Shown in pieces: positions 5,848 through 29,378 of a DNA stretch of 37,595 nt. Origin of the DNA: Methylococcaceae bacterium (GTDB lineage Bacteria; Pseudomonadota; Gammaproteobacteria; Methylococcales; Methylomonadaceae). The translations under genes were made by a program, and so were the position numbers. Under the pieces are notes generated by a model that ran no database searches, was not told where the DNA came from, and worked only from the letters and a program-made list of their open reading frames with translations. Positions within the stretch are counted from its first letter, which is position 1; each line of letters begins with the position of its first letter. The DNA is taken from assembly GCA_947504985.1 (NCBI GenBank), contig CANNKH010000005.1:1-37595 (forward strand), read 5' to 3'.

Positions 5848-6387
5848 ATGCGTGGATTATTTGACCAAATAAAAAATTTCATTATTTATGATGCTGATAA
5901 AGAGTTTTATGCCAAAGTATTTCCTGATTCTGTATCAAGGAAAGATTTAATGCGTCTTAGAAAAATGACGGTTTCCGACTTGCCTGAAGTGTTGGCAATA
6001 GAAAGAAAAAACTATCAATTTCCTTGGGAAGAAGATATTTTCAGAGATTGCTTTAAGGCAGGTTACAGTTGCTGGGTTTGTGAGGAGCAAGATAAGGTAC
6101 TGGGTTATAGTCTGATCACTATTGCTGTTGGTGAAGCGCATATTCTTAATATTTCCGTTGATCCGGCCGAACAAAAGCAAGGTATAGGTCGCAAGATGCT
6201 GGAAAATTTGATTGAGGTGGCGCGTGGAAAGGCAGAAACCGTTTTTCTCGAAGTCAGACCGTCTAACCCAGCGGCAATGGCCTTATATGAAGACATGGGG
6301 TTTAACGAAATAGGCGTCAGAAAAGACTATTATCCCGCTGAAAATGGTCGTGAAGACGCCATTATGTTGGCGTTGCAATTGTTTTAG
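5848..6387 (+). CDS. rimI: Ribosomal-protein-S18-alanine N-acetyltransferase (GNAT family)
   Basis: A GNAT acetyltransferase that acetylates the N-terminal alanine of ribosomal protein S18. The core begins at MRLRKMTVSDLPEVLAIE; the acetyl-CoA loop reads VDPAEQKQGIGRKML (about residues 108-122), and the family tail NPAAMALYEDMGF...RKDYYPAENGREDAIML is intact. Two starts are possible. ATG 5848 follows the upstream stop almost directly and gives 179 residues. ATG 5950 (residue 35) has a strong AAGGA site and gives 145 residues, the usual RimI length. The 34-residue extension (NFIIYDADKEFYAKVFPD) has coding-like codons, so I keep the long form but consider the short one equally likely. Confidence 0.9.
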   Translation: MRGLFDQIKNFIIYDADKEFYAKVFPDSVSRKDLMRLRKMTVSDLPEVLAIERKNYQFPWEEDIFRDCFKAGYSCWVCEEQDKVLGYSLITIAVGEAHILNISVDPAEQKQGIGRKMLENLIEVARGKAETVFLEVRPSNPAAMALYEDMGFNEIGVRKDYYPAENGREDAIMLALQLF

Positions 6388-6420
6388 GCTAGAGTTAAAT
6401 AGCTTCCCTAAACAATAAGT

Positions 6421-6462
6421 AGGCTTTCAAAGGTCTTTTTAACAAACAAGCCTTATTTTTAT
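6421..6462 (+). terminator. Possible weak terminator after rimI
   Basis: AGGCTT (6421-6426) pairs with AAGCCT (6448-6453), followed by TATTTTTATT. The stem is only 6 bp with a long loop, so termination is plausible but weak. Confidence 0.35.
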
Positions 6463-6477
6463 TGCTGAGGTAAAAAT

Positions 6478-6780
6478 GTTAAAAAAATTAGTAATTATTC
6501 AGCCCCCCCTAAAAATTACTGCGATTAAGCCGTCATTCCGGCATGGATTGCCGGAATCCAGAACACAGGGAGGTGTTTGTAGCTTGCCATCCGTGGCTTC
6601 TGGATCTCAACAATCCCTGCTGAGATGACGTAACTAAGGAGGGGTCTGAATAGTTACAAAAATTATGATCGGTTACTTCGTTCTGTTTTTAAAAAGATAG
6701 AGCAAAATGTAGTCGCTACCTCCCCATCGCCACTGAGGTTGGGACAGCCCAAAACAGGACTAACCGCTAGTCTATTTTAG
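6478..6780 (+). pseudogene. Possible small gene interrupted by repeat B1
   Basis: An ATG at 6478 with a good GAGGT binding site opens a frame reading MLKKLV, then runs straight into repeat B1. After the repeat the open stretch KNYDRLLRSVFKKIEQNVV (6659 onward, to a stop near 6780) reads like protein. This looks like a short gene split by the element, but no family is recognisable and it may be chance. The rest of the gap up to 6945 shows no gene. Confidence 0.25.
6491..6657 (+). repeat. Repeat family B, copy B1 (miniature element with terminal inverted repeats)
   Basis: Bounded by GTAATTATTCAGCCCCCCCT and the inverted AGGAGGGGTCTGAATAGTTAC. Inside are two hairpins: GTCATTCCGGCATGG...CCGGAATCCAG and GGATCTCAACAATCCCTGCTGAGATGACG. 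A longer inverted copy lies at 19887-20090. It has no coding capacity and looks like a MITE-like element. Confidence 0.85.
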
Positions 6781-6945
6781 CTCTGCCTGTAAAAAATAAT
6801 TCTTCGAAAAATAATAATCAGTATAATCTCACAAAAGTCAGAAAAAACAGAAAAAATCGCTATAGCAGATTACATCGATGCACGATAATTTATGCCTAAA
6901 AGCGAATCTTGCAGAATTTAGAGTGTATTCAAACTGAAACATAAC

Positions 6946-8025
6946 ATGACAATTCAAAGCGCCAGTCAGAATAACCCCATAGCACATAAACGAGGTATTG
7001 CTTTTCATGAAGCAGGCTATGCCACGGCTATTTATTTAAATAGTAAAACTTGTTACCTTCCCGCCGTTTTTTTTCAAATTACCGTTAAGGATTTAAACGG
7101 TACGTCCGAAGAAAGGCAAACAAGTTATCGCGTATCGCATGATAAATGTATGGTAAGCGTGGAGGGTGGGCGGTTAATTGAAAGCGTATTGCCTTCTATT
7201 GATCACGCACAGGACACTCCAGACGAAGTAGGCGCATTAATAGAGGACGAAATGATTGCCTTTGAAACGGACATCATTAATCTACTTATTGGCTCACTGG
7301 CGGAGGCTAAATATGTTGCTGAAATTGACGATGAACCTTTTAATCAAAAATTGGTTCACCTCCATGCCTTGAAAAACTATGGTGGCAACACCGCGATTGC
7401 TTTAACCGCTGACTATTTGCAACGTTTTTCGATCTGTAAGCAAACACAGGACAAAAAACGCCATGAGTTGCTTAATGTAGCTTTTAACTTCATCAATGAT
7501 CAGGCACACTGGCTAGCCATTACGCTGCTCGCGAACACAATCATCAATAGTGATAACAAAATTATTAGTGCTGAAGAAGTGGCTGCAATCGCCAATAACG
7601 CAATAATGTCAACCAAGCTGTTGCCTGTTGCTAATGACAAACCTGCAGCGATATTGTTTGTCGATGATGAGATAAATATACTTAACGCCTTGGGGCGACT
7701 GTTTCATCGAGAGCCTTATGTGACTTACTTTGCCGCAAGTGGTGAAGAAGGCCTGAGAATATTGCAACAGCATCCGGTTGATCTGATTATTTCTGATATG
7801 CGTATGCCAGAAATGAATGGTGTGGAATTTTTAGCTCAAGCGGCTTTGCATTGGCCCAAAACCATCCGCATTTTATTGACAGGCTATGCCGATATGCAAT
7901 CAATCATTGATGCCGTCAATAAGGGGCGCATTTGCAATTATTGTAATAAACCCTGGAATGATGAAGAGCTTAAGTTACTCATTCGTCAAGTCCTAGAACA
8001 AAAAGCCGCGACACGAGACAGGTAA
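6946..8025 (+). CDS. Degenerate M41 (FtsH-type) peptidase-like domain fused to a receiver domain
   Basis: Residues ~12-220 resemble the peptidase domain of FtsH/M41 proteins found alone, without the AAA ATPase: AFHEAGYATAIYL at 19-31 corresponds to the HEAGH zinc helix, and NYGGNTAIALTADYLQRF (144-161) to the second conserved region. The second zinc histidine is Tyr25, and the Asp that is normally the third ligand is not seen, so peptidase activity is unlikely. Residues ~233-355 are a full receiver domain: Asp240-Asp241, phosphoacceptor Asp284 in DLIISDMRMPEMNG, and Lys335 in NYCNKPW, of the RpfG/HoxA-like type. No signal peptide; cytosolic. It stands alone, with repeat B1 upstream and a convergent DUF411 gene downstream. 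A phosphorylation-controlled adaptor is one possibility, but the function is unknown. Confidence 0.75.
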   Translation: MTIQSASQNNPIAHKRGIAFHEAGYATAIYLNSKTCYLPAVFFQITVKDLNGTSEERQTSYRVSHDKCMVSVEGGRLIESVLPSIDHAQDTPDEVGALIEDEMIAFETDIINLLIGSLAEAKYVAEIDDEPFNQKLVHLHALKNYGGNTAIALTADYLQRFSICKQTQDKKRHELLNVAFNFINDQAHWLAITLLANTIINSDNKIISAEEVAAIANNAIMSTKLLPVANDKPAAILFVDDEINILNALGRLFHREPYVTYFAASGEEGLRILQQHPVDLIISDMRMPEMNGVEFLAQAALHWPKTIRILLTGYADMQSIIDAVNKGRICNYCNKPWNDEELKLLIRQVLEQKAATRDR

Positions 8026-8058
8026 AGTCTTGGCTTCCGTATATTCACCAAATCGGCG

Positions 8059-8523
8059 TTATTTGTCTGTATAGCGCTTAAACAGCCGTGCCTGATGTTG
8101 CTCGTCAAAACTGACCACATCGTAAGCTTCTTTTTTTGCCCCCATTTCCATACCCGGCGCACCCATCGGCATACCTGGAACCGCAATGCCGACTACTTTG
8201 GGTTTTGTTGTCAATAAAGTTCTAATATCACCAGCAGGAACATGACCTTCAATAACATAACCATTGATAATCGCGGTATGACAAGAGGCCAGTTCTGGGG
8301 TAACCCCATGTTTAATTTTGATAACCTGCATATCGTTCGTCACAATATCTTTGATGACAAACTTATTTTGTTGCAAATGTGCCCGCCAATTCTCGCAGCA
8401 ACTGCACGTCGGACTTCTATAAACTGTAATTTCAGTGACTTCTTCAGCGGCTACAGCCACATTCACTATTAATAAAGCGGCAGGCAAAAAACGTTTAACT
8501 ATTGTCATAGGAAATTTTTGCAT
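8059..8523 (-). CDS. DUF411 periplasmic metal-binding protein
   Basis: A signal peptide (KRFLPAALLIVNVAVAA) is followed by a small thioredoxin-like domain with the family's SPTCSCCENW motif, a conserved GVTPELASCHTAIINGYVIEGHVP block, and a Met-rich segment GMPMGAPGMEMGA near the C-terminus. DUF411 proteins bind copper and are often found near copper resistance or export genes. The Cys and Met residues here fit Cu(I) binding in the periplasm. The start could also be the ATG at 8508 (MTIVKRFL); neither has a clear ribosome binding site. The upstream region is taken up almost wholly by repeat D2, which therefore supplies the 5' leader. Confidence 0.9.
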   Translation of the reverse strand: MQKFPMTIVKRFLPAALLIVNVAVAAEEVTEITVYRSPTCSCCENWRAHLQQNKFVIKDIVTNDMQVIKIKHGVTPELASCHTAIINGYVIEGHVPAGDIRTLLTTKPKVVGIAVPGMPMGAPGMEMGAKKEAYDVVSFDEQHQARLFKRYTDK

Positions 8524-8524
8524 A

Positions 8525-8634
8525 GGAATGAACAGGAAATAAGTTCGGTAAATAATGACTGCCAGTCCTTTGAGGACTGGCAGTCATGGCATCCACCGAG
8601 GTTACAATTGATGAAGTTGTTTTGTACCCATTCC
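8525..8634. repeat. Repeat family D, copy D2
   Basis: The element runs from GGAATG (8525) to CATTCC (8634). Its centre is a perfect 14-bp stem (8555-8568 with 8574-8587, ATGACTGCCAGTCC) around a 5-base loop. The right half, GGCATCCACCGAGGTTACAA...GAAGTTGTT, matches the copy at 13213-13273. It fills the space between hemE and the DUF411 gene and could stop hemE transcription, though no T-run follows the stem. Confidence 0.8.
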
Positions 8635-8638
8635 ATAG

Positions 8639-9706
8639 CTAGTCGTGATGATAAGTCGGGCTATATTGATGCACGGCATCGACCATCGCTTTAACATGAT
8701 CGGGATTAATGTCAGGCAAAATGCCATGACCTAAGTTAAACACATGCCCTGAGCCCGAGCCGTATTTATCCAACACCGTTTTAACTTTTTCGATAATAAT
8801 TTCCGGTCTGGCATAAAGCGAAACAGGATCCATATTACCTTGCAAAGCCACTTTATGACCGACTCTCGCACGGGCGTGATGAATATCGGTCTGCCAATCG
8901 AGCCCTAACGCGTCATAACCCGCATCCGCCATCGTTTCCAGCCATAAGCCGCCGCCCTTGGTAAACAGGATGGTTGGGATGCGTTGCCCATCCACCTCCG
9001 TTTTAAGCAATGCTCTGACTTGTTTGGCGTAATATAACGAAAACTCAACATAATCTTCGCTGCTCAGCATACCGCCCCAGGTATCAAACAACATGACCGC
9101 CTGAGCGCCCGCCTCGATTTGAGCATTTAAGTAAGCAGCGACGGCTTGCGCCAGTTTATCCAGCATAAGGTGCATAACGGCAGGCTGTTCATACATTAGG
9201 CCTTTTACTTTTTGAAAGCTCTTACTACTGCCGCCTTCAACCATGTAAGTTGCCAATGTCCAAGGACTACCGGAAAAACCAATAAGCGGCACGCTACCCT
9301 GTAAATTTTTACGGATCAGACTGACCGCATCGACGACATAGCGCAACGCTACACAAGGGTCAGGAATGGGCAATTGCTCAACATCTGCGGCGTTGCAAAC
9401 TGGTTTTTTAAATTTTGGACCTTCGCCTTCAGTGAAATAAAGACCTAATCCCATCGCATCAGGGATGGTCAGGATGTCTGAAAATAAAATAGCAGCATCG
9501 AAATTAAAGCGTCGTAAAGGCTGCAAAGTCACTTCGCAGGCTAATTCAGGATTGGTACATAAATTTAAAAAACTACCCGCCTGCTCTCTAATTTGTCGGT
9601 ATTCTGGTAAATATCGACCTGCCTGCCGCATCATCCATACCGGTGTCCGATCTACCGGTTGTTTTAATAGCGCTCTAATAAAGGTGTCGTTTTTTAATGG
9701 AAGCAT
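8639..9706 (-). CDS. hemE: Uroporphyrinogen decarboxylase
   Basis: Converts uroporphyrinogen III to coproporphyrinogen III by four decarboxylations, in cytosolic haem synthesis. 355 residues, the normal length. Near the N-terminus [16 protein letters not shown] is the first family signature, carrying the essential arginines; [15 protein letters not shown] contains the active-site aspartate, and [17 protein letters not shown] is the second signature. The C-terminal [15 protein letters not shown] is also conserved. It appears to be a single-gene unit between repeats A3 (upstream) and D2 (downstream), on the same strand as the aro-damX block; co-transcription with damX, which lies upstream, is possible. 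No strong ribosome binding site is visible at the ATG. Confidence 0.98.
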
Positions 9707-19886: not shown

Positions 19887-20090
19887 GTAACTATTCAGCC
19901 CCCTCCTTAGTTACGTCATCTCGGCATACCCTCTGGGGTACAAGGGGATTGCCGAGATCCAAAAGCCACGGATGGCAAGCTACAAACACCTCCCTGTGTT
20001 CTGGATTCCGGCAATCCTCTTGTACCCCAGAGGGTATGCCGGAATGACGGCTTAATCGCAGTAATTTTTAGGGGGTGGCTGAATGATTAC
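19887..20090 (-). repeat. Repeat family B, copy B2 (inverted, longer arms)
   Basis: The reverse complement of B1: GTAACTATTCAGCCCC at the left and GTGGCTGAATGATTAC at the right. The two internal hairpins are each extended relative to B1 by ACCCTCTGGGGTACAAGG-type sequence that pairs with itself between arms, so the whole element can fold as a long cruciform. It ends 10 bases from the stop of the LOV gene. Confidence 0.85.
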
Positions 20091-29190: not shown

Positions 29191-29378
29191 CCTGTATCTC
29201 CTGCAGTGTTCGACAGTGTGCTGGGTGTTTCCTGAACCTGTATTACCCTCGGGGGCTGATGTCTGCCTTGGTGAGCATGCCCGTTTAATACGGGAAGCCT
29301 GATTGGCAAACCGCGCCCCCACTTGAACCGCCGGTTCAAGGACGAAAGCGTGCATCGGCACAGGCGGGAGATACAATT
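29191..29378 (+). ncRNA. ssrS: 6S RNA
   Basis: A regulatory RNA that mimics an open promoter and sequesters the housekeeping RNA polymerase holoenzyme in stationary phase. The terminal stem pairs GTATCTCC (29194-29201) with GGAGATAC (29367-29374). Strongly conserved segments are present: TTGGTGAGCATGC followed by GGGAAGCCT (29269-29299) and the hairpin CTTGAACCGCCGGTTCAAGG (about 29322-29341). The central bulge and upstream stem are as in gammaproteobacterial 6S RNA. The position directly after zapA is the canonical one. The gene usually following, encoding 5-formyltetrahydrofolate cyclo-ligase, is absent. Confidence 0.92.

Follow-up and report, generated by a model that had tools for sequence, protein, structure and literature searches.

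Response regulators are known to act as protease adaptors: RssB and CpdR do so for ClpXP, and the output domain of RssB is an inactive, phosphatase-like one. In the available parts of the reports on chloroplasts, the FtsHi proteins are described as pseudoproteases, whose M41 domain has lost its zinc motif and which have non-catalytic roles in heteromeric complexes (PMC8197885, PMC11266112). YqgP of Bacillus subtilis is presented, in the accessible portion of its report, as a protease-fold substrate adaptor for FtsH that works independently of its own catalysis (PMC7231995).

Here we describe a gene of a Methylococcaceae bacterium that joins an inactive M41 domain to an intact receiver; its relatives suggest that the dead enzyme has been retained to work with live proteases under the control of a signal. 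Positions refer to the window, i.e. the whole stretch of 37,595 nucleotides analysed. No M41-receiver fusion was found in the open-access literature searched, where the one joint match, in the part of its text available, names M41 and receiver domains in separate proteins.

Domain architecture of the fusion protein

The fused gene (6946-8025, plus strand, as are all its parts below) opens with ATG and codes for 359 amino acids. It is composed of an M41-like (FtsH peptidase-type) domain whose active site is not intact (residues 1-225, 6946-7620), a linker modelled with low confidence and resembling the short pre-receiver stretch of Methylobacter RR-HD proteins (residues 226-235, 7621-7650), and a receiver domain (residues 236-346, 7651-7983; Pfam PF00072, E 1e-20). 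Since the same two-domain protein is present in three other genomes at 62-63% identity, the fusion is more than a chance product. The relatives start with ATG-AAA-CGT-AA(T/C), to which CTG-AAA-CAT-AAC at 6934-6945 corresponds, and the first in-frame ATG of the window copy lies four codons downstream of their start position. Pfam detects the receiver alone, with no AAA+ ATPase domain in the same chain, and neither Pfam nor NCBIfam assigns the N-domain to any family (0 families).

Receivers filled the results of a structure search with the model of the whole protein, so a separate prediction of the N-domain was made and used as the query. This second model, built from a 71-row alignment (pLDDT 86.1, pTM 0.84), retrieves FtsH-type chains in all of the top 20 rows (FtsH, YME1, AFG3L2 and chains of the FtsHi complex), with VIA-align Z values of 10.3-13.3 over 130-160 aligned residues and rmsd of 2.8-4.0; unrelated folds reach Z 4.3 at most. 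Row 21 is PDB 5iqj, a Vibrio cholerae protein of unknown function (Z 9.6), which may be a further M41-like protein. Profile comparison points in the same direction: hhalign of the family profile against 23 FtsH peptidase domains gives a probability of 94.3 (E 1e-7), driven mainly by the HEAGH helix. Other searches are fainter, namely Foldseek alone (best E 0.074, to FtsH, probability 0.99), the sequence profile against the PDB (marginal, best E 0.082, all nine matches FtsH-type), Pfam M41 against the family (22 of 37 members matched weakly, best E 0.005) and FtsH models against the relatives (best E 0.0065). The M41-like fold that the first-pass annotation had proposed for residues 1-225 is thus well supported.

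The receiver had been called fully conserved, and rightly so: D240, D241, D284, T312, Y332 and K335 are present in all four fusions, including the phosphoacceptor Asp284 (7795-7797) and Lys335 (7948-7950). Its structural match to 3hv2 has a Z of 20.4.

The M41L family and the loss of the active site

We call the family of the window N-domain M41L; its members are mostly stand-alone proteins, and no description of it was found in the open-access literature searched. Of the order's 311 genomes, 191 carry it, and all the matching ones that were listed belong to the host's own family; in a sample of 398 genomes from across the phylum, the host alone matched (0 of the 397 others). Among the best 80 of 283 relatives, the named carriers are Methylobacter, Methylovulum, Methylomonas, Methylomicrobium, Methylotuvimicrobium and Methyloprofundus, together with less precisely named relatives. 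Stand-alone M41-like proteins do exist, as the first-pass annotation had held for Proteobacteria, but M41L was seen in one bacterial family only. A viral origin was considered and rejected, as 206 viral-contig stretches match a search pattern and just one of them codes for a relative, which stands alone. L261:1329-2024 is a stand-alone M41L gene next to an alcohol-dehydrogenase-like gene, on a contig that is classed as viral; it keeps HEAGH and has Glu for the relatives' Asp in the second motif.

The live motif is nearly universal outside the fusions. When duplicates, contained sequences and domains below 150 aa are left out, 103 of the 108 stand-alone rows read HEAGH, one each reads HEAAH, HQAGH (L131), HKAGH (L046) and HEAGY, and one is without the stretch. 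The scan of relatives, which kept the best 80 of 283, was collected partly with the HEAGH pattern; among the 39 stand-alone rows not picked by it, 37 read HEAGH, one HKAGH and one is truncated, and none of three fusions is intact. The stand-alone relatives also carry a G-x-x-D-L/I-type motif, and the presumed third-ligand Asp is found in 107 of the 108 rows (Gly in the other). Both stand-alone copies of the host have HEAGH and the Asp, and HEAGH paralogues are present in all four fusion genomes.

In the window protein, HEAGY (residues 21-25, 7006-7020) places Tyr25 where the second zinc His is expected, and YGGNTA (residues 145-150, 7378-7395) places Ala150 where the presumed ligand Asp is expected. 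Both losses had been noted at first pass, where conserved HEAGH in others and HEAGY in a subclade were named as support for ligand loss; in the alignment and the tree, almost every stand-alone relative has HEAGH, and HEAGY occurs in a subclade of the fusions. We presume from the motif pattern and from co-loss that Asp at position 150 is the third zinc ligand. The three rows without this Asp (listed as the window, L003 and the stand-alone L120; among the fusions, the window and L066 combine HEAGY with Ala) all read HEAGY, and this joint loss of His and Asp supports a single metal site. Of the hhalign alignments, the best leaves the M41L Asp and the FtsH Asp unpaired, and a suboptimal one (probability 1.6) pairs them. 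Ligand loss in the window protein is well supported.

The receiver fusion was found in at least 4 of the 237 genomes of the family: the window, G010 (L066, cut off within the receiver by the end of its contig), G034 (L064) and G095 (L063). The search scored the best eight candidates per genome, with the fusions at the top, and the fusion profile covers both domains in these four proteins (E <= 1.6e-207), the next match being to the N-domain only (7.8e-98). The active sites read HEAGY with Ala in the window and L066, HAAGH with Asp in L064 and HEAGY with Asp in L063, so that Asp is kept in two of the four and all three presumed ligands are kept in L064. The site is therefore broken in 4/4 fusions versus 3/107 readable stand-alone rows (HQAGH, HKAGH, HEAGY), a contrast given without a p-value because the independent-pairs test had one pair and no power; nor do the fusions count as four independent cases, since with sites scored as broken or not, a single change on the fusion stem suffices. 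The earlier reading of lost zinc ligands holds for the window copy but not for the HAAGH fusion, which keeps its presumed ligands and has lost the catalytic Glu. Judged from the motifs, then, the property common to the fusions is loss of catalysis rather than of zinc binding.

One might suppose that the protein is still an enzyme, with His21, Glu22, Tyr25 or other residues arranged around a different metal, given that His21 is kept in all four fusions and Glu22 in three. This seems extremely improbable, as the window protein and L066 hold one of the three presumed ligands, L064 is devoid of the general base, and no compensating His or Asp was seen to be conserved in the fusion alignment. Neither an unrelated fold nor a substitute zinc site, the outcomes that the first-pass annotation had held to speak against it, was found.

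A stand-alone M41L of Methylobacter sp. KS41 (L120:5992-6852) combines HEAGY with an Asp-to-Gly change and is a pseudoprotease candidate without a receiver. By eye, in three forward frames, no receiver remnants were seen behind L094, L069 or L120.

Origin, constraint and genomic surroundings

The four fusions form one clade among HEAGH proteins in a tree built from 48 N-domains (92/88, with the motif columns kept and the bootstrap not settled); in a wider, quick tree two stand-alone proteins join the group, which is not firmly supported. The fusion thus probably arose once, with moderate support from the sequence trees. At least two different inactivating changes are then implied, Glu to Ala on one branch and His to Tyr on the other. 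In the receiver tree the fusions fall among Methylobacter RR-HD and RR-GGDEF-EAL receivers; three of them group (88/91) with L064 apart, and one origin is not rejected (p-AU 0.186). Since four RR-HD receivers from the host's genus, the host's own included, branch outside the fusion-receiver group, the fusion may have reached the host lineage from a Methylobacter-like donor.

The rates of change argue that the dead domain is kept. N-domain dN/dS is 0.29 for L063-L066 (dS 0.34) and 0.26-0.31 for three wider fusion pairs (rough values at dS 0.88-1.15, most fusion pairs being near saturation), compared with 0.09-0.16 for four stand-alone pairs and 0.25 for the mixed fusion/stand-alone pair L061-L064. 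The values thus point to purifying selection on the fusion N-domain, under weaker constraint than in the live family since dN/dS is about twice that of the stand-alone pairs. If the fusion arose by chance and is on its way to being lost from the few genomes that have it, this would account for the rarity (4/237 found), the raised dN/dS and the shifted start codon of the window copy. We nevertheless consider such decay very unlikely, because dN/dS stays at 0.26-0.31, receiver dN is below N-domain dN in all four pairs, the receiver residues are intact in 4/4 fusions although the N-domains are only 54-57% identical, and no stop or frameshift is seen in the window, L063 and L064 copies or in L066 up to its contig end.

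The fusion receiver is 79% identical to an RR-HD receiver, and hence may share its kinase. The protein might then be a phosphate sink or decoy, with the receiver competing against RR-HD and RR-GGDEF-EAL regulators for phosphoryl groups and the M41-like part serving just to stabilise or dimerise it; the rare and scattered occurrence of the fusions would suit such a role. Phosphate sinks, however, are usually bare receivers, and a sink has no need of a 225-residue N-domain under purifying selection, which makes this role distinctly unlikely.

As for the source of the phosphoryl group, the receiver donor modules contain genes for RR, HDOD, hemerythrin-PAS histidine kinase and RR-HD proteins, and in one of them RR-GGDEF-EAL is present as well (families scanned in L177). 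The hemerythrin-PAS kinase of L177 shares 68% identity with one encoded by the host. We infer that this kinase is the best candidate for Asp284. No kinase gene adjoins the window fusion; a PAS histidine kinase lies close downstream of the L063 fusion, and a receiver-kinase gene 493 bp downstream of the L064 fusion. A hemerythrin-PAS protein of Methylomonas denitrificans is a proposed oxygen sensor, and hypoxia raises the expression of its neighbouring genes, according to the available part of that report (PMC12607906).

The genes around the fusion differ in each of the four genomes, and in the window they look like housekeeping genes. Upstream are what we take to be a uracil-DNA glycosylase gene and rimI, and downstream, on the opposite strand, presumably a DUF411-like gene and hemE. 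A rimI relative is present at 19 other loci in sister genomes of the genus, with the glycosylase gene adjoining at 15. The fusion is found at none of the 19, and the DUF411-like gene and hemE are likewise absent from these rimI flanks (up to ~1.5 kb, shorter at some). This suggests a recent insertion in the host lineage, and no more than suggests it, because the downstream gene order is not common to the sister loci either. The search for a carrier was negative: a repeat search of 6200-8700 revealed no mobile element, just a REP-like interspersed palindromic repeat (6525-6640, no strand assigned) upstream of the window gene; the L064 fusion, too, is preceded by an element of this type. This repeat has 49 matches in the host genome, some being two arms of one copy, and is not thought to be part of the fusion's function.

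The REP-like repeat also occurs at 19945-20017. A perfect 15-bp inverted repeat with a 3-nt loop (8555-8587), possibly a terminator, lies between the DUF411-like gene and hemE, and a 6S RNA gene is located at 29195-29374 (Rfam RF00013, 87.6 bits).

Putative role in proteolysis and relation to known systems

At 31 of 80 M41L loci (77 stand-alone, 3 fusions), an FtsH gene follows directly downstream on the same strand; 12 loci share the same frame overlap between the two genes, and two more overlap as called. The linked FtsH is short or in pieces at four of the 31 loci, and the 27 full-length ones have HEAGH in 25/27 and GAxND and Walker A in 27/27. FtsH as a neighbour points to proteolysis for the M41L family. 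An example of M41L directly upstream of a second FtsH gene is L067:5971-8659, with 30 similar loci. From L108:6680 onwards, a 1000-aa ORF occupies FtsH's place, and its start resembles the FtsH N-terminus.

The fusions themselves are not so placed. FtsH adjoins none of the four, with the L066 flank cut short at its contig end, and in the host genome (92.8% complete) no close counterpart of the M41L-linked FtsH is seen, the two FtsH proteins encoded there being 44% identical to it. An M41L-FtsH pair is found elsewhere in two fusion genomes, G034 (L096) and G095 (L090). The dead M41 domain might therefore serve a response regulator for binding in general, with c-di-GMP enzymes or something in the membrane as possible targets, and be unlinked to proteolysis. 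The receiver indeed derives from c-di-GMP regulators, PAS-GGDEF-EAL and DUF2934 genes lie upstream of M41L-FtsH in the one operon scanned (with similar ORFs in others), and the fusions L063 and L064 have kinase genes rather than FtsH beside them. We consider this role unlikely, however, as FtsH is the commonest M41L neighbour after a broad signalling-protein cluster (53/84 sources).

In our most likely reading, which we hold at somewhat less than even confidence, the fusion would be a phospho-controlled pseudoprotease that regulates live M41L or FtsH proteases. It is the most economical reading, since it accounts for an intact signal input, an enzyme domain without its own key residues and a family tied to FtsH; our confidence is lowered because no fusion adjoins FtsH. 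In a fusion that probably happened a single time, an M41L protein, soluble and related to the peptidase domain of FtsH, would have acquired the receiver found at the N-terminus of a c-di-GMP-type response regulator (RR-HD or RR-GGDEF-EAL), and would then have lost catalysis by different residue changes while purifying selection kept its fold. A sensor kinase, most plausibly the hemerythrin-PAS kinase of the donor module, would phosphorylate Asp284 and thereby alter binding by the dead M41 domain, which may pair with live M41L paralogues or dock on FtsH. The domain would thereby inhibit proteolysis, recruit to it or tune it, and would not itself cut. The identity of the kinase, the phosphorylation, the partner and the sign of regulation are what we infer at this stage. 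A narrower version, in which the phosphorylated pseudoprotease inserts into or blocks live M41L (or FtsH) assemblies so that oxygen or redox signals set the rate of proteolysis in methanotrophs via the hemerythrin kinase, seems rather doubtful.

The fusions constitute a natural experiment: after what was probably a single fusion event, one and the same active site was inactivated in at least two different ways, and live-motif paralogues exist in the same genomes. They would allow a direct test of whether active relatives are regulated by a phosphorylation-controlled pseudoprotease, and in what way. The family is also of interest in itself, since its M41-like members were found here in a single family of methanotrophs and their genes often lie directly upstream of a second FtsH gene.

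Compared with known systems, the window N-domain shares with FtsH and peptidase family M41 (Pfam PF01434) the peptidase fold (Z 10-13) and, within its family, the HExxH helix. Unlike FtsH, the window protein has no AAA+ ATPase and no membrane part that we could find, and two ligands are gone; the spacing from HExxH to Asp is 124 residues, compared with 74 in E. coli FtsH as listed in Table 2 of one partly accessible source (PMC11266112). As in FtsHi, an M41 domain with a lost zinc motif is kept, but FtsHi is a plant protein with its AAA+ motor retained, whereas this is a bacterial domain without a motor, under a receiver. YqgP differs in being a rhomboid membrane protein that is still catalytic and has no receiver. 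RssB and CpdR act on ClpXP, and their output is unrelated to the putative adaptor domain described here; by analogy, the receiver-controlled, non-catalytic control of proteolysis that we propose would follow the same logic.
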